Shown here one piece after another: positions 3,312-13,231 of a stretch of DNA of 64,000 bases. Where the stretch lies: positions 192,071 through 256,070 of the forward strand of contig NZ_PCQD01000005.1 of NCBI RefSeq assembly GCF_002979975.1, written 5' to 3'. Position 1 is the first letter of the stretch; each line of letters starts with the position of its first letter. The DNA is from Pseudomonas sp. MYb185 (GTDB lineage: Bacteria > Pseudomonadota > Gammaproteobacteria > Pseudomonadales > Pseudomonadaceae). Below the pieces are notes generated by a model. That model made no database searches and was not told the DNA's origin. It worked only from the letters and a program-made list of their open reading frames with translations. A program made the translations under genes and the position numbers.

Positions 3312-4412
3312 ATGACCACATCTCTGCACTGGATGCGCTGCCATGCGCCTCTGGCCCTGATGCTGATGGCCTGCGCGGCGCAGACCCAGGCCGACCAGGC
3401 TCCGCCCTGCGAAGCCGGCGCCGACTATCGACCGGTGTGCGGCATCGCACCGCCGGAGGACCTGGAGCTGTCAGCTGATGGCAAGCACCTGTTCATGAGC
3501 GTGACTCCCGGCCTGGCCGGACAGCACCGTCCGCGGCTGCGGGTCATGGAGCTGGCTACCGACCGGGTGGAGGATATGAAGGTGAGTTACGCGGCGCAGC
3601 CAGGCTGGGGGGAAGCCGGCTGCGCTGTACCCGAGCATGGCATTGGTGCCCATGGCATCCACCTGTCCGAGCGCGCAGATGGTCGCCAGCAATTGCTGGT
3701 GGTCAATCATGCCGGGCGCGAGGCTATCGAGTTCATCGAGTTGCAGCCGGATGAGCAGGGTTGGCAGGCCATCTGGCGTGGCTGTGTGGAGAACCGCGGC
3801 CAGGGCAAGTTCAATGATGTGGCGGCCACGCCGGACGGCGGTTTTGTCGCCACCGTCATGTTCGTCTCCGACAGCATGGAGCCGCCGCTGCCACTGGAGC
3901 AACTGCTCGATGGGCGCGACACCGGTTATCTGATGCAATGGTCCGCGGCGCAGCCGCTGCGCAAACTGGAGGGCTCCAGTGCGCCTTTCCCCAATGGCGT
4001 GCAGGTATCGGCGGATGGCAATAGCGCCTGGTTCGCCGCATGGACGGCGAAACAGCTGTGGCGATACGACCTGGAAACGGGCGCCATTACGGCCAGGGTG
4101 GACACCGGCTATATGGTCGACAATCTCAACTGGGCAAGCGATGGCCGGCTGCTTGGTGCGGGTGTGCCTGACGGGGATGCGTTCATTCACTGCTTCGAGC
4201 AGCAGATCGAGCACTGTCCGATGGCGGTGCGGGTGTCGGCGCTGGATACGCTCGACCTGCAGCACGACATGCTGTTCAGTATCGAGCCCGGTGTCATGGC
4301 CGGTGCTTCGGTGGCAACCCAGGTCGGTGAGGAGTTGTACGTTGGCACCTTTACCGGCGATCGTCTGCTGCGCGTGACGATCGGGCAAGGAGGCGAGCAT
4401 GCGCAGGAGTGA
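3312..4412 (+). CDS. Exported paraoxonase/SMP-30-like beta-propeller protein
   Basis: A 366-residue protein with an N-terminal export signal (hydrophobic about 12-27). Cleavage near Gln-Ala-Asp looks likely, although Leu-Met-Ala-Cys at 18-21 could be a weak lipobox. Repeated sequence blocks suggest a six-bladed calcium-dependent propeller. His-Gly-Ile-His followed by Leu-Leu-Val-Val-Asn-His-Ala resembles the paraoxonase/arylesterase core. Phe-Asn-Asp-Val-Ala-Ala-Thr-Pro-Asp-Gly and Asn-Gly-Val-Gln-Val-Ser-Ala-Asp-Gly look like SMP-30-type metal-ligand loops. A lactonase or esterase role is inferred, not shown. AAGGA precedes the ATG. Its end overlaps the arylsulfatase start by 14 bases, so the two form an operon. 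Confidence 0.7.
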   Translation: MTTSLHWMRCHAPLALMLMACAAQTQADQAPPCEAGADYRPVCGIAPPEDLELSADGKHLFMSVTPGLAGQHRPRLRVMELATDRVEDMKVSYAAQPGWGEAGCAVPEHGIGAHGIHLSERADGRQQLLVVNHAGREAIEFIELQPDEQGWQAIWRGCVENRGQGKFNDVAATPDGGFVATVMFVSDSMEPPLPLEQLLDGRDTGYLMQWSAAQPLRKLEGSSAPFPNGVQVSADGNSAWFAAWTAKQLWRYDLETGAITARVDTGYMVDNLNWASDGRLLGAGVPDGDAFIHCFEQQIEHCPMAVRVSALDTLDLQHDMLFSIEPGVMAGASVATQVGEELYVGTFTGDRLLRVTIGQGGEHAQE

Positions 4413-6051
4413 CCGGGTGGGCAGGACGATGGCGGTACTGGCGCTGCTGTGGATGGGTGCTGGGGTGGCTGCCGAGCGGCCCAATATCCTGTTGATCATG
4501 GCCGATGACCTGGGGTTCTCGGACCTGGGCAGCTATGGCGGGGAGATAGCTACGCCGAACCTGGACACCCTGGCTGCCGAGGGGCTGCGCATGTCCAACT
4601 TCTACACCGCGCCGACCTGTTCGCCGACCCGGGCCATGGTGATGTCGGGTACCGACAACCATCTGGTGGGGCTGGGGACCATGGCGGAGGTGCTGCCGTT
4701 CCTGCCCCAGCTGCAGGGCCGCCCGGGCTATGAAGGGCACCTGAATGAGCGCGCCCATTCGCTGCCGGCGCTGCTCGGCGAGGCGGGCTACAACACCTAC
4801 CTGAGCGGCAAATGGCACCTGGGCAAGGCGCCGGAGCAGGACCCGCTGCGCCTGGGCTTCGACCGTGCCTTCGTGCTGCTCGATGGCGGCGCCAGTCATT
4901 TCCAGCCGCTGGACGGCAGCCAGGTGCGGGTGGAGAACGTCAGCTATCGCGAGGACGGCCAGCCGGTAGAGGTGCCGGCGGATTTCTTCTCCTCGGATTT
5001 CTACACCGACAAGCTGATCGGCTACCTGGAACAGGGGCGGGCCAGTGGGCGGCCGTTCTTCGCCTGGGCCGCCTATACCGCGCCGCACTGGCCGCTGCAT
5101 GCGCCGCAGGAATATATCGACAAGTACCGTGGGCGCTACGATGCCGGGTATGAGGCCATCCGCGAGCAACGCCTGGCCCGGCAGCGGGATGCTGGCCTGT
5201 TTCCGGTGGCGTTCCCCGCGGCGGCCCCGGCTGATGTGCCGAGCCCGCTGTGGCATCAGCTCGGCGTCCAGGAGCAGGCTCGTCAGGCGCGCCGGATGGA
5301 AGTGTATGCGGCCATGGTCGATCACCTGGACATGAATATCGGCCGGCTGATCGATTACCTCAAGCGCAGCGGGCAGTACGACAACACACTGATCCTGTTC
5401 ATTTCCGACAATGGCGCAGCTGGCGAGGACCACGCCAAGGGCTATTCCCCGGGGGATGGGATGACTGACGATTCGCTGGCCAATATCGGACGGCGCGGCT
5501 CCAATGTGAATTATGGTTTCCGCTGGGCCGAGGTCAGTGCCACGCCTTTCAGCCTGGTCAAGGGCACCTCCGCCGAAGGCGGCATCAGCTCACCGGCCAT
5601 CGTCAGATTGCCGGCCAGCCTGGGTGGTGCCGGTGCGGGGCAGGTGATCCATGATGTTGGGCGGGTCGATGACCTGCTGCCGACCTTCCTGGAGTTGGCC
5701 GGGCAGGATGATCCAGGTGACAGCTTCAAGGAGCAGCCTCGGCATCCGGTTACCGGCGTGTCGCTGCTGGCCGCCTGGCAGGGGCGGGAAGGGGTGCGTA
5801 GCAAGCCCATGGCCGGGGAAATGTTCGGCCAGCCCTATGTGCGCCTGGGTGACTGGAAGTGGCGTTCGGCTTTCGCCCCGGACGGCAGCCCGGCCAGCCT
5901 GAACCAGCCTTACCAGTGGCAACTGTTCAACCTGGCCGAAGACCGTGGGGAAACCCGGGATCTGGCTGCCGACTACCCGGAAAAGGCGGCCGAATTGATG
6001 CAGGCCTGGCGCGAGTATGCCGAGTGGGCAGGGGTGGTGGAGCCGGACTGA
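4399..6051 (+). CDS. Arylsulfatase (type I, Cys-type)
   Basis: A 550-residue exported sulfatase that should hydrolyse sulfate esters in the periplasm. It begins with a signal peptide ending Gly-Val-Ala-Ala-Glu and continues into Arg-Pro-Asn-Ile-Leu-Leu-Ile-Met-Ala-Asp-Asp, which gives metal ligands Asp36 and Asp37. The sulfatase signature Cys74-Ser-Pro-Thr-Arg is intact, so Cys74 would be converted to formylglycine. Later come Ser-Gly-Lys-Trp-His-Leu-Gly and Ile-Ser-Asp-Asn-Gly, both typical of the active site. The start has a strong AAGGAGG at 4387-4393 with a 5-base spacer, inside the end of the propeller gene. No formylglycine-generating enzyme or anaerobic maturase lies in this window. 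The natural substrate is unknown. Confidence 0.9.
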   Translation: MRRSDRVGRTMAVLALLWMGAGVAAERPNILLIMADDLGFSDLGSYGGEIATPNLDTLAAEGLRMSNFYTAPTCSPTRAMVMSGTDNHLVGLGTMAEVLPFLPQLQGRPGYEGHLNERAHSLPALLGEAGYNTYLSGKWHLGKAPEQDPLRLGFDRAFVLLDGGASHFQPLDGSQVRVENVSYREDGQPVEVPADFFSSDFYTDKLIGYLEQGRASGRPFFAWAAYTAPHWPLHAPQEYIDKYRGRYDAGYEAIREQRLARQRDAGLFPVAFPAAAPADVPSPLWHQLGVQEQARQARRMEVYAAMVDHLDMNIGRLIDYLKRSGQYDNTLILFISDNGAAGEDHAKGYSPGDGMTDDSLANIGRRGSNVNYGFRWAEVSATPFSLVKGTSAEGGISSPAIVRLPASLGGAGAGQVIHDVGRVDDLLPTFLELAGQDDPGDSFKEQPRHPVTGVSLLAAWQGREGVRSKPMAGEMFGQPYVRLGDWKWRSAFAPDGSPASLNQPYQWQLFNLAEDRGETRDLAADYPEKAAELMQAWREYAEWAGVVEPD

Positions 6052-6100: not shown

Positions 6101-7441
6101 TCAGGCCTGGGCCAGGCTGTCCAGCAACACCCGTACCTTGGTCAGGCTTTCCTGGTACTCGGCCCCCGCCTCGGAGTCGGCGACGATGGCGCCGCCACCC
6201 CAGCAGTACAGGCGGTCGTCCTGGTGTACCAGGCTGCGGATGGCGATATTCAGGTCCATCTGCCCCTCGCAGCCGATATAGCCGATGCTGCCGCAGTACA
6301 GGCTGCGGCGCACCGGCTCCAGCTCCTCGATGATCTGCATGGCGCGGATCTTCGGTGCGCCGGTGATCGAGCCGCCGGGGAAGGCACCGGCCAGCAGGTC
6401 CAGGGCGTCCATCTCCGGTTTCAGCGTGCCCCGCACGCTGCTGACCAGATGATGCACGTTGGGGTAGCTCTCGATCCTGAACAGCTCCGGTACACGAACG
6501 CTGCCAAAGGCGCAGGCGCGGCCGAAGTCGTTGCGTAGCAGATCGACGATCATCAGGTTCTCCGCGCGGTCCTTGGGGCTGCCTTGCAGCTCCTCGGCCA
6601 GCGCCCGGTCCTGTTCCGGCGTATCGCCCCGCGGGCGTGTGCCCTTGATTGGCCGGGTTTCCGCCTGGCCATCCACCACCTTGAGAAAGCGCTCCGGAGA
6701 CAGGCACAGCAGCGCCTGGCCAGGAAATTCCAGGTAGGCGGCAAACGGTGTCGGGCAGGCCTGGCGTAGACGCCGATAGGCGGTCAGCGGATCGCCCTGG
6801 CAGGGTGCCGAGAAGCGCTGGGCCAGGTTCACCTGATAGCAATCACCGGCTCGGATGTACTGCTGGATACGCTCGAAGGCGTCCAGATAGGCCGCTTGCG
6901 GCTGCTCTGCAGTGAAGGGGTGGGTGAGGCTGAATTCGCCTGGATCGACAGTGGCAGCGGCCAGGCGCGCAAGCAATTCGCTCCGATAGCTTTTGTCGAC
7001 AATCGGATGGCACACCAGCCAGCGCCGACGCAACTGGTTGTCGCTGACCAGGCTCCAGCGATAGATGCCCATCTGCAGAAGCGGCAGTTGGATGTCGGCG
7101 CGGGCCTGGACCGGCATGGTCTCCAGTGCCCGACCGAAGTCGTAGCTGACAAAACCCAGGGCGCCGGCACCGAACGGCAGCTGCAACTGCTGCGGCCAAC
7201 TGGCTGGGCCCAGCTCGGCGAGGGCCTGGCGCAGGCGCTCGATGGTCTGCCGACCGGGTTCGTCCGGCTGCGGAGTGAGCAGTATCGACGGGTCCGCCGC
7301 CAGGATGCTGTAGCGGCCCAGCGGGTCGCCGCTGGCGGCCGAGTCGAGCAGTACCGGATGGCCCATGTCACGAATGGCAAAAAGCCCTGGCAGCGGGTCG
7401 GCTTGCCAGGGCAGTTCGGTAATCTGGTAGGACGCGGTCAT
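6101..7441 (-). CDS. pabB: Aminodeoxychorismate synthase component I
   Basis: This 446-residue enzyme aminates chorismate to 4-amino-4-deoxychorismate for folate synthesis, using ammonia from the PabA glutaminase (not in this window). The C-terminal chorismate-binding domain (about 180-446) is complete. Pro-Ile-Lys266-Gly-Thr matches the lysine motif that separates PabB from anthranilate synthase TrpE, which has Ala there. Pro-Glu-Arg-Phe-Leu-Lys precedes it, and Gly-Gly-Ser-Ile-Thr-Gly-Ala-Pro-Lys and the Glu/Gly-rich C-terminus follow. Its ATG overlaps the TGA of the upstream ATP-grasp gene as ATGA, so translation is probably coupled. It is convergent with the sulfatase operon, with only 49 bases between them. 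Confidence 0.93.
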   Translation of the reverse strand: MTASYQITELPWQADPLPGLFAIRDMGHPVLLDSAASGDPLGRYSILAADPSILLTPQPDEPGRQTIERLRQALAELGPASWPQQLQLPFGAGALGFVSYDFGRALETMPVQARADIQLPLLQMGIYRWSLVSDNQLRRRWLVCHPIVDKSYRSELLARLAAATVDPGEFSLTHPFTAEQPQAAYLDAFERIQQYIRAGDCYQVNLAQRFSAPCQGDPLTAYRRLRQACPTPFAAYLEFPGQALLCLSPERFLKVVDGQAETRPIKGTRPRGDTPEQDRALAEELQGSPKDRAENLMIVDLLRNDFGRACAFGSVRVPELFRIESYPNVHHLVSSVRGTLKPEMDALDLLAGAFPGGSITGAPKIRAMQIIEELEPVRRSLYCGSIGYIGCEGQMDLNIAIRSLVHQDDRLYCWGGGAIVADSEAGAEYQESLTKVRVLLDSLAQA

Positions 7442-8454
7442 GCGGTGGGTTCGGGCTCCGCCGGCGCCTCGTCTGCGCTGAGGAAGACCGGTTTGCCAAA
7501 ATGCTTCTGGGCGAACGCCATGCGCTCGTCCACCGTCTCGGTGCGGCCGGTCTTTTTCAGTTCGGCGATGTGTTTCTCCACCGTATGGCAGCGGTGGGTC
7601 AGGCCTGCATCGTTGGCGATCTGGATGTTCAGACCGGGGCGGGCGTTGAGTTCGAGAATCAGCGGACCTTTCTTCTCGTCCAGCACCAGATCCACACCGA
7701 TGTAACCCAGCCCGGACAGCTCGTAGCAGGCCGTGGCCAGACGCATGAAGCCGTCCCAGTCGGGCAACTGCACGCCGTCCACCGGGTTGGCGGTATCCGG
7801 ATGCTTGCTGATCTTGTTGTTCAGCCAGGTGCCCTTGAGGGTGACGCCGGTGGTCAGGTCCACGCCGACGCCGATGGCGCCCTGGTGCAGGTTGGCCTTG
7901 CCGCCGGACTGGCGGGTCGGCAGGCGCAGCATGGCCATGACCGGGTAGCCCATGAGCACGATGACACGGATATCCGGCACGCCCTCATAACTGATGCTCT
8001 TGAAGATCGGGTCCGGCTTGACCCGGTATTCGATCAGCGCCCGGTCCCGGTGTCCACCCAGCGAGTACAGGCCGGAAATGATGTTGGAGATGTGGTGCTC
8101 GATCTCCTCCAGCGTGATGATCTTGCCCGACACCGTACGAAAGCGGCCCTCGTAGCGGTCGCCGATCACCAGGATGCCGTCACCGCCAGCCCCCTGGGCC
8201 GGCTTGATGACGAAGCCCTTGTGGTCCTCCACCAGTTTGCTGAACTGACCGATACCCTTCTCGGTATCGATGATGCCGTAGAGGTCGGGGACGTTGATAT
8301 CGGCGGCGAGGGCGCGCTCCTTGGTCAGGATCTTGTCATCGACCACCGGATACAGGTTGCGCTTGTTGTACTTGAGCACGTAATCCGCGTTGCGCCGATT
8401 GATGCCCATGACCCCATTGTCTCTGAGCGCTTTCCAGGTCTTCCAGAAAAACAT
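7438..8454 (-). CDS. RimK-like alpha-L-glutamate ligase-related ATP-grasp protein
   Basis: A 338-residue ATP-grasp enzyme of the RimK-related ligase family. Such enzymes form amide bonds through an acyl-phosphate, often adding glutamate or another amino acid to a carboxyl group. Lys-Pro-Ala-Gln-Gly-Ala-Gly-Gly-Asp-Gly (about 83-92) is the ATP-binding lysine and glycine loop. Glu-Leu-Asn-Ala-Arg-Pro-Gly near residue 268 supplies the magnesium ligands, so the enzyme looks active. The gene follows the seven-helix transglutaminase-like gene by 10 bases, a pairing seen widely in proteobacteria. Here it also overlaps pabB. The retropepsin-like protease that often belongs to this gene set is absent from the window. 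The substrate is unknown. Confidence 0.85.
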   Translation of the reverse strand: MFFWKTWKALRDNGVMGINRRNADYVLKYNKRNLYPVVDDKILTKERALAADINVPDLYGIIDTEKGIGQFSKLVEDHKGFVIKPAQGAGGDGILVIGDRYEGRFRTVSGKIITLEEIEHHISNIISGLYSLGGHRDRALIEYRVKPDPIFKSISYEGVPDIRVIVLMGYPVMAMLRLPTRQSGGKANLHQGAIGVGVDLTTGVTLKGTWLNNKISKHPDTANPVDGVQLPDWDGFMRLATACYELSGLGYIGVDLVLDEKKGPLILELNARPGLNIQIANDAGLTHRCHTVEKHIAELKKTGRTETVDERMAFAQKHFGKPVFLSADEAPAEPEPTA

Positions 8455-8464
8455 GCGACTCTCC

Positions 8465-9994
8465 TCAACCCTGCTTGGTCAGCGCCTTGAAGCGCATCAG
8501 TTCGGTGAGGCGATAGCCGCGGTAGCGACCCATGGCCAGCATGAAGCCCACCAGTACCAGCAGGATGGCCGGGAAGGTGAAGACGAAGTAGGTCAGCTCC
8601 GGAATGGTCATCAGCAGGTGCGACAGGGTCGCGGCGATCAGGGTGCCCAGGGCCACCTTGAAGGAATGACCACCGCCACGCTCTTCCCAGTTGATCGACA
8701 GGCGTTCGATGGTCATGGTCAGGATCACCATCGGGAACAGCGATACCGACAGGGCGCGGTCGATGCCCAGCTTATGGCTGAACAGGCTGATCACCGCGAT
8801 GATGATCACCACGAAGGTCAGCACGATCGACAGGCGTGGCAGCATCTGCAGCTTGAGGTGTTCCAGATAGGAGCGCAGCGACAGGCCCAGGGCGGTGATC
8901 AGGGTGAACAGCATGATACCCCAGCCGACCTGGGTTTCACGGAAGGCCAGGGCAATCAGTACCGGGGTGAAGGTACCCAGGGTCTGGATGCCGATCAGGT
9001 TGCGCAGCACCAGGATCACCAGGACGCCGATCGGGATCATGATCATCACCTGGTAGACCTGTTGTGCCTGCAGCGGCAGGCCATACAACGAGTACTCCAG
9101 CAGCGCCGAGGGACTGCTCTCGGTGGTCATCTTGGCCAGCCGCAGGGCATTCATTTCACTGTTGTTGACGGTAATGCTGACGCTCCCGTTGCGGGCACCT
9201 TCCAGTTGCAGCAGCGGGAGGTTGCCAGTCCACCAGACCAGGCGGTTTTCCGGCATGCCCTGTTGCCCGGTTTCCGGGTGGAAATACAGCCAGCGCTCAC
9301 CGTTGTGGCTGCGCAGCCAGAGTTCCGGCTCCTGGTTGGGGGTGGCCTCCAGGCGCACGGTGTGCACCATTTCCAGCGGGATGCGCGCATTGGATAGCAG
9401 TACGTCGATCACCCGCGCCTTGTCCAGCGGGGTGCTCTGGCCGCCCAGCAGCAGGCGCACATTGTCATCGGTGATGTCATTGACCCGGCGGATGGTTTCA
9501 CTGATGAAGGTTTCGATATCCGCTGAATGCTGGCGGATCGGGTTGATCAGCGCATCGGCGGCCACCTGTTCGGGACCGTCCAGTGCAATCGGTTGGCGCG
9601 GGGCGGGCGCGGGCGCTTCGACAGCTTCGGAGCCATAGCGCTGAGTCAGTACCAGTCGGTAATAGAGTGTCTGCGAGCCACTGGCGCGACGGGCGGACCA
9701 GGTGACCCGGCGGTTGCCGTTCTGCTGGTTGACGCTGACGCCGTAGTTGTTGGAGATGAAGCTTTCGTTGAGGCTGACGAACTTCTGGTTCAGCGGCGGA
9801 ATGAACAGCTGTGCCTTGACCGGCACGCCGCTGCTGGCACGGAATTCGACTTTGGCATCCAGACTCCAGATATCGTCGGTTTCATCCTCGCGTACGGGAA
9901 TGTCGAGTACATATATCTGATAGCCGGTAATCAGCAGGCCCAGACTGACCATCAGGGCGATGAGGATTTTCAGATGCGTATTGATCGATTGCAT
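8465..9994 (-). CDS. Inactive transglutaminase-like protein with seven transmembrane helices
   Basis: A 509-residue inner-membrane protein. One N-terminal helix (about 8-28) is followed by a large periplasmic part to about residue 310, which includes a transglutaminase-like fold region. Seven hydrophobic helices fill the C-terminal 190 residues. I find no cysteine anywhere in the protein, so a thiol transglutaminase reaction is impossible; this matches the family's description as inactive. The longer ORF begins at 10030. I chose the ATG at 9994 because GAG lies about 6 bases before it and a signal-anchor follows at once. It probably heads the operon with the ATP-grasp ligase and pabB, and may bind peptide or protein substrate at the membrane. 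Confidence 0.82.
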   Translation of the reverse strand: MQSINTHLKILIALMVSLGLLITGYQIYVLDIPVREDETDDIWSLDAKVEFRASSGVPVKAQLFIPPLNQKFVSLNESFISNNYGVSVNQQNGNRRVTWSARRASGSQTLYYRLVLTQRYGSEAVEAPAPAPRQPIALDGPEQVAADALINPIRQHSADIETFISETIRRVNDITDDNVRLLLGGQSTPLDKARVIDVLLSNARIPLEMVHTVRLEATPNQEPELWLRSHNGERWLYFHPETGQQGMPENRLVWWTGNLPLLQLEGARNGSVSITVNNSEMNALRLAKMTTESSPSALLEYSLYGLPLQAQQVYQVMIMIPIGVLVILVLRNLIGIQTLGTFTPVLIALAFRETQVGWGIMLFTLITALGLSLRSYLEHLKLQMLPRLSIVLTFVVIIIAVISLFSHKLGIDRALSVSLFPMVILTMTIERLSINWEERGGGHSFKVALGTLIAATLSHLLMTIPELTYFVFTFPAILLVLVGFMLAMGRYRGYRLTELMRFKALTKQG

Positions 9995-10151: not shown

Positions 10152-10162
10152 TTGTTGACAAT
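10152..10162 (+). promoter_or_regulatory. Operator-like site 1 for the GntR regulator
   Basis: TTGTTGACAAT differs by one base from TTGTCGACAAT at 10226-10236. Both match the TNGTNNNACNA type of half-site arrangement used by FCD-class GntR proteins. Centre to centre they are 74 bases apart, close to seven helical turns. This copy covers the -35 hexamer. Confidence 0.5.
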
Positions 10163-10184
10163 CCATGCCTTGGAAGGGCATTAT
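10155..10184 (+). promoter_or_regulatory. Sigma-70-type promoter of the GntR-prp operon
   Basis: TTGACA at 10155-10160 is followed after 18 bases by CATTAT at 10179-10184. It points into the GntR gene and so into the prp cluster. The -35 hexamer lies inside the first operator-like element (10152-10162), so a bound regulator would block polymerase. Confidence 0.6.
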
Positions 10185-10225: not shown

Positions 10226-10236
10226 TTGTCGACAAT
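10226..10236 (+). promoter_or_regulatory. Operator-like site 2 at the GntR start codon
   Basis: TTGTCGACAA (10226-10235) is a perfect 10-bp palindrome. It lies between AAGG at 10222-10225 and the TTG start codon at 10236. Binding here could block elongation of the transcript and so give autoregulation. Confidence 0.5.
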
Positions 10237-10943
10237 TGGCTGATTCGAATAATGTGATTCCTGCTGCAACATTGTCTGATGGCGCCTTTCAGCGCTTGCA
10301 GACGGCGATTGTCAAAGGCGAGATCCCGCCGGGCACCCGCATCAGTGAGCAGTTCCTGTCCACTACCTACGGTATCAGTCGTGGCCCATTGCGCGAGGCC
10401 ATTCGTCGCCTGGAAGGGCGTCGGTTGGTGGTGCGCGTGCCGCATGCCGGTGTGCGGGTGGTGTCGCTCAGCTATGAAGAACTGATCGAGCTGTACCACG
10501 TGCGTGAAGCACTGGAAGGCATGGCCTGCCGGCTGGCGGCGCAGAACATGACCGATGAGGAAATCGCCAACCTGCGCGACATTCTCGCCACCCACGAACG
10601 TCATGCCGGGCTCAAGGCCAACCAGTCCTACTACCAGCAGGAAGGTGACCTGGATATCCATTTCGTGATTATCCAGGGCAGCAAGAACCGCACCTTGAGC
10701 GATATGCTCTGCGGCGACCTGTACCACCTGGTACGCATGTACCGCTACAAGTTCTCTTCCACGCCGAAACGCCCGCAGCAGGCGTTCGCCGAACACCACC
10801 GAATCATTGAAGCCATCGCTGATCGTGATGGTGAACTCGCGGAAATGTTGATGCGCCGACATATCAGTGCATCCCGCCGCAACATCGAGCGTCGCATGCA
10901 AGAGCAGGGCGATGCTTCCACTTCCTCAGGAGGGACAGTCTGA
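10236..10943 (+). CDS. GntR/FCD-family regulator of the methylcitrate operon
   Basis: A 235-residue transcription factor. Residues about 10-78 form the GntR winged helix: Ile-Pro-Pro-Gly-Thr-Arg-Ile-Ser-Glu then [13 protein letters not shown]. The rest is the helical FCD ligand domain, with metal or acid-binding histidines such as the one in Asp-Ile-His-Phe. The start is TTG at 10236, which gives a short acidic N-terminus; a GTG at 10254 has no ribosome site. The stop at 10941-10943 overlaps the prpB ATG by one base. In Pseudomonas a GntR protein in this position accompanies prpB-prpC, so it probably senses a methylcitrate-cycle intermediate. That role is inferred from position. Confidence 0.88.
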
Positions 10944-13087: not shown

Positions 13088-13202
13088 CCCTCTCCCCAGC
13101 CCTCTCCCGTCAAGGGAGAGGGAGCAATCCGCGCAGTTGATTGGTGTAGTGCACGGGCAAAGCCCCTCTCCCCTTGCGGGAGAGGGGTTGGGGAGAGGGG
13201 GG
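13088..13202 (+). repeat. GGGAGAGGG palindrome pair 1 (prpC-acnD junction)
   Basis: Two oppositely oriented copies of one element. The left copy (13088-13123) is CCCTCTCCCCAG followed by a CCCTCTCCC-GTCAA-GGGAGAGGG hairpin (13100-13122). The right copy (13163-13202) is the mirror form: a CCCCTCTCCC-CTTGC-GGGAGAGGGG hairpin (13163-13187), then TTGGGGAGAGGGG. A 39-base spacer separates them. Next to the right hairpin, AAAGCCC reads GGGCTTT on the other strand and leads to CGTGCA, a tail shared with other copies in the window. The layout resembles REP/BIME pairs, but the sequence is a different family from Pseudomonas REPs that I know well. Confidence 0.88.
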
Positions 13203-13231
13203 CGGAGCTTCAACCAAACACAGGCACAACC

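Follow-up and report, generated by a model that had tools for sequence, protein, structure and literature searches.

A rloBC locus of the RloABC envelope-stress system in Pseudomonas sp. MYb185, with an unlinked secreted protease, a pabB neighbour and homologues that keep the transglutaminase Cys-His pair

The stretch of DNA analysed here (the window, 64,000 nucleotides of contig NZ_PCQD01000005.1 from Pseudomonas sp. MYb185) carries on its minus strand the genes rloB, rloC and pabB, which encode a membrane protein with a transglutaminase-like domain, an ATP-grasp ligase and a folate enzyme. A first-pass annotation, made by a model from the sequence alone, had called these three genes in this order, and their positions and order on the minus strand were confirmed. 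The features of the locus are as follows.

8465..9994, minus strand: rloB, 509 amino acids (aa), with an N-terminal transmembrane (TM) helix, a predicted periplasmic inactive transglutaminase-like domain and seven TM helices
9443..9922, minus strand: PF14400 match (inactive transglutaminase, N-terminal part), residues 37-196 of a 521-aa frame
8480..9217, minus strand: PF14402 match (seven TM helices), residues 272-517 of the 521-aa frame
7438..8454, minus strand: rloC, RimK-like ATP-grasp ligase, predicted cytoplasmic
6101..7441, minus strand: pabB, aminodeoxychorismate synthase component I, assigned from TIGR00553 and synteny and judged a neighbour, not a partner
10236..10943, plus strand: gntR-family regulator (PF07729 and PF00392), first gene of a gntR-prpB-prpC block, a divergent and conserved neighbour

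The rloB reading frame is open upstream to 10030, which gives the longest frame of 521 aa, and its start is most likely 9994 because the NF052267 match begins there, at residue 13 of that frame. A gap of 10 nucleotides (nt) separates rloB from rloC, and the ATGA overlap said to join pabB to rloC is real (rloC stop 7438-7440, pabB start 7441-7439). A promoter/terminator scan, which was not used further, gave promoter-like sites on the plus strand at 10155-10184 and 10226-10253 and one on the minus strand within rloB, and two terminator-like sites, both on the plus strand within rloC and no more than expected by chance.

The whole RloB protein matched NCBIfam NF052267 (920 bits, cut-off 900) as well as Pfam PF14400 and PF14402. 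RloC matched TIGR02291 (530 bits, cut-off 314) and PF14397 (319 bits) and fell short of the RimK family TIGR00768 (46.6 bits, cut-off 143.4), while PabB matched TIGR00553 (370 bits, cut-off 328.4). The window locus is a member of the RloABC system, a hypo-osmotic-stress system of P. aeruginosa characterised in 2025 by Lormand et al. (PMC12239564). The first-pass description of a known but poorly understood pair stands in its first half and is outdated in its second, the system now having a name and phenotypes (PMC12239564). RloA is a secreted retropepsin that in vitro cuts runs of 8 or 10 Glu and not runs of 6 or fewer; a P. aeruginosa triple rloA mutant is rescued in low salt by loss of rloB or rloC; rlo mutants show cell-shape, ampicillin and biofilm phenotypes; and in V. 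cholerae the envelope regulator VxrB controls the rlo genes (PMC12239564). Among the suppressors that another screen lists in a flagellar mutant are transposon hits in PA1766, PA1767 and PA1768 (PMC7314104). The window locus shares with P. aeruginosa RloABC the RloB and RloC families, the rloB-rloC order, the inactive transglutaminase and a secreted RloA-type protease in the genome; it differs modestly in two respects, having no rloA in the operon and pabB directly downstream (PMC12239564).

The first-pass annotation had noted that the membrane protein is cysteine-free and concluded that it cannot be a thiol enzyme, and both points were borne out. Window RloB contains zero cysteines. When 202 distinct RloB proteins, drawn from 217 loci, were aligned, it showed P/E/H at the transglutaminase Cys/His/Asp columns, so that the Cys-His-Asp triad of an active transglutaminase is absent. 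In an AlphaFold2 (AF2) model (predicted local distance difference test, pLDDT, 85.5; predicted template modelling score, pTM, 0.62) the transglutaminase part matched 3ISR, a putative cysteine protease of Cytophaga hutchinsonii, at Z 15.4; the two share a transglutaminase-like fold, whereas none of the three catalytic residues (Cys, His, Asp) stands at its column in the window protein. The one-plus-seven helix count suggests that the RloB C-terminus is cytoplasmic, which agrees with the ligase being fused there in relatives (below), and the transglutaminase domain is predicted to be periplasmic. For the seven-TM part, Foldseek/VIA searches with the whole-chain model gave no convincing known-fold match; because this part was not folded alone, the missing match is no sign of a new fold.

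A relationship between the seven-TM part and CapC/PgsC was considered and dropped: the CapC-like set, of only three sequences, gave an hhalign probability of 0.5 in 100, window RloB had no Pfam match to the CapC/PgsC family PF14102, and PF14102 had no match anywhere in the window genome. The PgsB-PgsC/CapB-CapC poly-gamma-glutamate synthase pairs a cytoplasmic ligase with a membrane partner, and the likeness is confined to that shared idea. Separately, five genomes of family f207 (L359-L363, L365-L369) each carry two CapC-type segments within a single open frame; this frame is about 1080 aa long in four of the genomes and 502 aa long in the fifth.

RloC retains every residue that is invariant across 34 aligned homologues (K84, E142, D161, R163, R177, N188-L-H190, D255, E268, N270 and R272), as expected from the earlier statement that the ligase keeps its ATP and metal residues; which residue does what within the ATP-grasp site is our assumption. 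A comparison with Protein Data Bank sequences gave a single weak match, to a probable alpha-L-glutamate ligase (E 0.025).

The protease was located elsewhere in the genome. The statement that it is missing from the window is true of the operon, rloA not being directly upstream of rloB. The whole genome encodes two PF05618 proteins. One is RimB (NF052261, 221 bits, cut-off 200), which adjoins RimK (NF007764, 486 bits, cut-off 331; TIGR00768, 287 bits). The second is RloA3, which matched NF052264 (226 bits, cut-off 210), has by eye a signal-peptide-like N-terminus and is encoded on the same contig as the window, 129 kb beyond it (L002, 1339-2052) and about 137 kb from rloB. The genome thus has one secreted protease, RloA3, where P. 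aeruginosa has three (PMC12239564). Like the RimB-RimK ribosome-modification system, described in the same report, the Rlo system combines a RimK-like ATP-grasp ligase with a retropepsin (PMC12239564); unlike it, the window system adds a membrane protein, its protease is secreted, its RloC scores below the RimK cut-off, and the rimB-rimK pair exists separately beside rloBC and RloA3.

The unlinked arrangement is general in the genus. We compared 34 genus loci (the window and 33 others; PF14397 exceeded its cut-off in 34 of 37 genus genomes), 20 loci representing 18 further genera of the family (two of them sampled twice) and 40 class loci. The 40 were chosen to be diverse among the 79 genomes, out of 369 of the class, that have PF14402. 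RloA adjoins rloB in 0/34 genus, 18/20 other family and 31/40 class loci. Other proteases of this family, likewise unlinked, are present in part of the genus; one of these (L348, genome G016) is RloA1-like and under the cut-off of that model (215 of 280 bits). As a side observation, the C-terminal tail of RloA3 is acidic, with 13 Asp/Glu among its last 25 residues. In a survey of L339-L358, 11-14 Asp/Glu were counted in this segment of the window genome's RloA3 and of 13 of the 15 proteases in L339-L353, and the acidic tail was not seen in L348, in L351 (RloA3) or in L356 (a second RloA3, of G007). Since RloA cleaves poly-Glu, such a tail could be a decoy or regulator.

What is new in this analysis is a form of RloB that keeps the catalytic Cys and His, has RloC adjacent or fused to it and has no RloA in its sampled locus. 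Such proteins came from 5 of the 40 class loci, from 5 of 30 phylum loci taken as best matches to a Cys-His query, and from 80 loci kept of 223 relatives in one named genome scan. The search patterns of that scan include the Cys motif, so Cys retention among the 80 is by selection; the absence of RloA was not selected. After removal of identical sequences, 82 distinct RloB proteins keep Cys-His, of which 67 also have the Asp and 15 have Cys or Gly at that column. An RloA-type match was present in the sampled locus of none of these 82, compared with 81 of 86 distinct RloB proteins without Cys-His outside the window genus (the 86 include nine proteins of a divergent group 3, and the match in L205 is RimB-like). 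By a stricter count, which takes the 77 distinct Rlo-type loci outside the window genus, 72 have RloA immediately upstream. The sequence available upstream of RloB in the 82 Cys-His loci is at least 600 bases in 77 and at least 2,000 in 63. Among 13 genomes with a Cys-His RloB, 7 have no PF05618 protein, and in the two genomes holding both kinds of RloB (G198 and G465) a protease stands beside the Cys-His-less copy only. Two Cys-His proteins (L206 and L203) keep the full triad and exceed the PF01841 cut-off; the Cys-less L204 and L205 exceed this cut-off too. The records that hold the Cys-His form are named after about eleven phyla, and most are metagenome bins, whose names may be wrong: Pseudomonadota, Nitrospirota, Desulfobulbaceae, Campylobacterales/Helicobacteraceae, Calditrichota, Myxococcales and Anaeromyxobacter, and further Bacteroidota, Spirochaetes, Fibrobacteres, Krumholzibacteriia and Bdellovibrionaceae.

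RloC accompanies the Cys-His form in 78 of the 80 named loci, the contigs of the other two stopping just past RloB. In three loci the two proteins are fused.

L206, 4990-7506, 838 aa: RloB-RloC fusion of a Cys-His transglutaminase, seven TM helices and an ATP-grasp ligase
L322, 5977-8427, 816 aa: fusion of the same three parts
L323, 5959-8385, 808 aa: fusion of the same three parts

The fusions put RloC at the C-terminus of the seven-TM part, which fits a ligase and a transglutaminase domain on opposite faces of the membrane; that the ligase works close to the membrane, as first proposed, is plausible, and RloB and RloC of the window species may likewise be in contact. In a model of the L206 fusion (pLDDT 90.9, pTM 0.67) the transglutaminase part matched 3ISR at Z 24.0, and the ligase part was closest to ArgX/LysX (Z 19.7), followed by RimK (Z 17.9), then by cyanophycin synthetase (Z 17.2) and, at little distance, D-Ala-D-Ala ligases (Z 17.0 or lower). 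ArgX/LysX, RimK and cyanophycin synthetase lengthen peptides or carriers, and RimK is a poly-alpha-Glu synthetase. A fold match of this modelled ligase is no proof of substrate.

The Cys-His form has further neighbours. Of the 80 named loci, 70 hold a member of a cluster of tetratricopeptide repeat (TPR) proteins; where the locus was drawn (22 loci), it mostly lies downstream of RloC, and the five TPR proteins looked at have a hydrophobic stretch at the N-terminus. Next along in 59 of the 80 lies a barrel-like protein of about 400 residues. With a hidden Markov model (HMM) built from a BLAST cluster (an HMM seeded on L281 did not extend), this protein was found in 60 of the 82 distinct Cys-His loci, and in 51 of the 56 of those with 4.5 kb downstream; it was found in 0/86 and 0/34 loci without Cys-His, 25 such phylum loci having flanks too short. 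One of these proteins gave weak beta-barrel matches, under cut-off; eight N-termini inspected were mostly signal-peptide-like; and in 28 of 58 the last residue is Phe, Tyr or Trp, as is often so in beta-barrels. Our literature searches found no paper on a transglutaminase, ATP-grasp and TPR system. Iyer et al. 2009, which stood outside those searches, is probably the first description of the pair and may have noticed the Cys-His form earlier.

We consider it slightly on the likely side that the window genes are the rloBC part of the RloABC envelope-stress system, served by the unlinked RloA3 and merely adjoined by pabB, and that they work as ligase, carrier and protease as follows. RloC in the cytoplasm would spend ATP to build or extend a glutamate-rich peptide. 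The cytoplasmic C-terminus of RloB would dock RloC, and RloB would carry the product to or through the inner membrane, where its dead periplasmic transglutaminase domain may hold the product rather than cut it. Secreted RloA3 would trim the periplasmic product, and without a protease the product of RloBC would pile up and cause harm in low-salt medium. The product would be processed by the transglutaminase domain in the Cys-His form and by RloA in the Cys-His-less form. This exchange, in which the RloA retropepsin substitutes for the transglutaminase's own chemistry, is our strongest inference, drawn from one deep split, the two within-genome contrasts and the published cleavage of poly-Glu (PMC12239564).

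Several points weigh against this reading. The nature of the product and its passage through RloB are steps that we infer, and rloA is unlinked in all 34 window-genus loci. Among the 72 RloA frames found upstream, 10 lack a hydrophobic N-terminus when judged by a crude test. The Cys-His set was gathered largely by Cys-motif patterns (80 kept of 223) or by a Cys-His query, five of its 82 loci have fewer than 600 bases upstream, the 7 genomes without a protease include incomplete ones (two at 88%), and the L206 fusion was modelled with a pTM of 0.67. The group-3 proteins (L204, L205, L325-L330 and L338) are Cys-less, lack an RloC of their own and have the protease otherwise arranged: a protease of the RloA/RimB family is present in 8 of 9 loci, often on the opposite strand, and in L205, L328 and L330 a nearby ligase groups with RimK. 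Nine group-3 proteases from eight loci were scanned; two fitted RimB best (L205 and one of two in L328) and seven the RloA models, with 0/9 reaching any RloA/RimB model cut-off.

The swap between Cys-His and RloA, moreover, rests on essentially one deep split. In a tree from the seven-TM columns the 33 sampled Cys-His proteins formed one clade on one side of a branch (support 98), as did the five sampled window-genus rows (98), and an independent-pairs test of Cys-His against RloA found one pair and had no power. In a RimK-rooted RloC tree with a very long root branch, the 40 Rlo rows (one clade, 100) nest among the Cys-His partners, which suggested a polarity; an approximately unbiased (AU) test on a reduced set, from which group 3, L312 and L323 had been removed, did not uphold it, holding the 30 Cys-His partners together being better by 10 log units (p-AU 0.67). 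Given this result and the long root, the trees do not give the direction of change. That the triad was lost, and not regained at homologous positions, is argued from plausibility.

Tentatively, and with the balance leaning against it, there may be a widespread trans-envelope machine for the synthesis and export of a poly-amino acid, of which RloB-RloC is a reduced and periplasm-retained form. The fuller machine would comprise a cytoplasmic ATP-grasp ligase, a seven-helix protein with a periplasmic papain-like transglutaminase, a membrane-anchored TPR protein and an outer-membrane beta-barrel; after loss of Cys-His, the barrel and TPR protein would have been dropped and RloA would have taken over processing.

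Other explanations part from the preferred carrier model at the acceptor or at the role of RloB. LysX/ArgX, the best fold match of the modelled ligase, ligate onto a carrier protein, and RloC could similarly glutamylate an acceptor that is membrane-bound or exported, be it a peptidoglycan precursor, a lipoprotein or a periplasmic protein; RloB would present or flip this acceptor and RloA would edit the modification. Such an acceptor would suit the phenotypes that rlo mutants show in cell shape, ampicillin response and biofilms (PMC12239564), as well as the increased vesicle release (hypervesiculation) seen in Shewanella when an inactive-transglutaminase membrane protein is disrupted (PMC12096838). 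However, a search by Lormand et al. turned up no periplasmic poly-Glu substrate encoded in the genome, which still leaves room for modified proteins (PMC12239564), and in the 33 Rlo-type class loci no neighbour besides rloA and rloC recurs in more than 5; we regard this explanation as unlikely. Less probable still is that RloB is a sensor whose periplasmic domain reads envelope state or a peptide and whose seven-TM part toggles RloC without any export, RloA cutting the ligand or RloB itself. A dead enzyme domain outside with an enzyme inside, and the control of the V. cholerae genes by VxrB (PMC12239564), are consistent with a sensor, but the retained Cys-His and the TPR and barrel-like set of many homologues resemble processing and export.

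The first-pass annotation had further coupled the pair to pabB, with folate polyglutamylation as a guess. In the genus, the rloB-rloC-pabB order with a divergent gntR beside rloB is found in 34/34 loci and a 4-nt rloC/pabB overlap in 18/34, the remaining gaps hinging on the start chosen, and rloC and pabB are likely co-transcribed there. PabB adjoins rloC in only 9/20 other family loci and 0/40 class loci, and the two loci of genus g14 disagree on its presence; separation from the pair, on which the proposed coupling was to turn, is thus seen at family level and not at genus level. These counts make pabB a family-level neighbour, and the divergent gntR, at 15/20, is more conserved in the family. 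Synteny therefore leaves the coupling unsupported, and pabB is a co-directional housekeeping neighbour with no functional link to rloBC indicated. That the operon serves folate, with RloC polyglutamylating folates or partnering PabB, is very improbable despite the genus-wide arrangement, given these counts, a predicted P. aeruginosa operon PA1768-PA1767-PA1766 in which pabB is not included (PMC7314104) and published rlo phenotypes that concern the envelope (PMC12239564).

Two observations concern the flanks. Beyond pabB, on the plus strand at 3312-6051, lie genes for a CSPTR-motif sulfatase and an SMP-30-like protein, a pair found in only one (L033) of the 33 other genus loci within the stretch compared. 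Between prpC and an aconitase-like gene, inverted repeats at 13088-13207 have 29-nt arms that are 83% complementary; the frame called from 13073 probably begins before the repeat, and the gene itself probably after it.

The Rlo system bears on osmotic survival, biofilms and cell-wall antibiotics, and its key question is what RloB and RloC make. Where the transglutaminase site of a homologue is intact, RloA is absent from the locus, and both activities may therefore share one product. Having a single secreted retropepsin and not three, the window genome would offer a simpler test organism. The Cys-His form with its TPR and barrel-like partners, present in records named after many phyla, may point the way to a secreted poly-amino acid that has escaped recognition.

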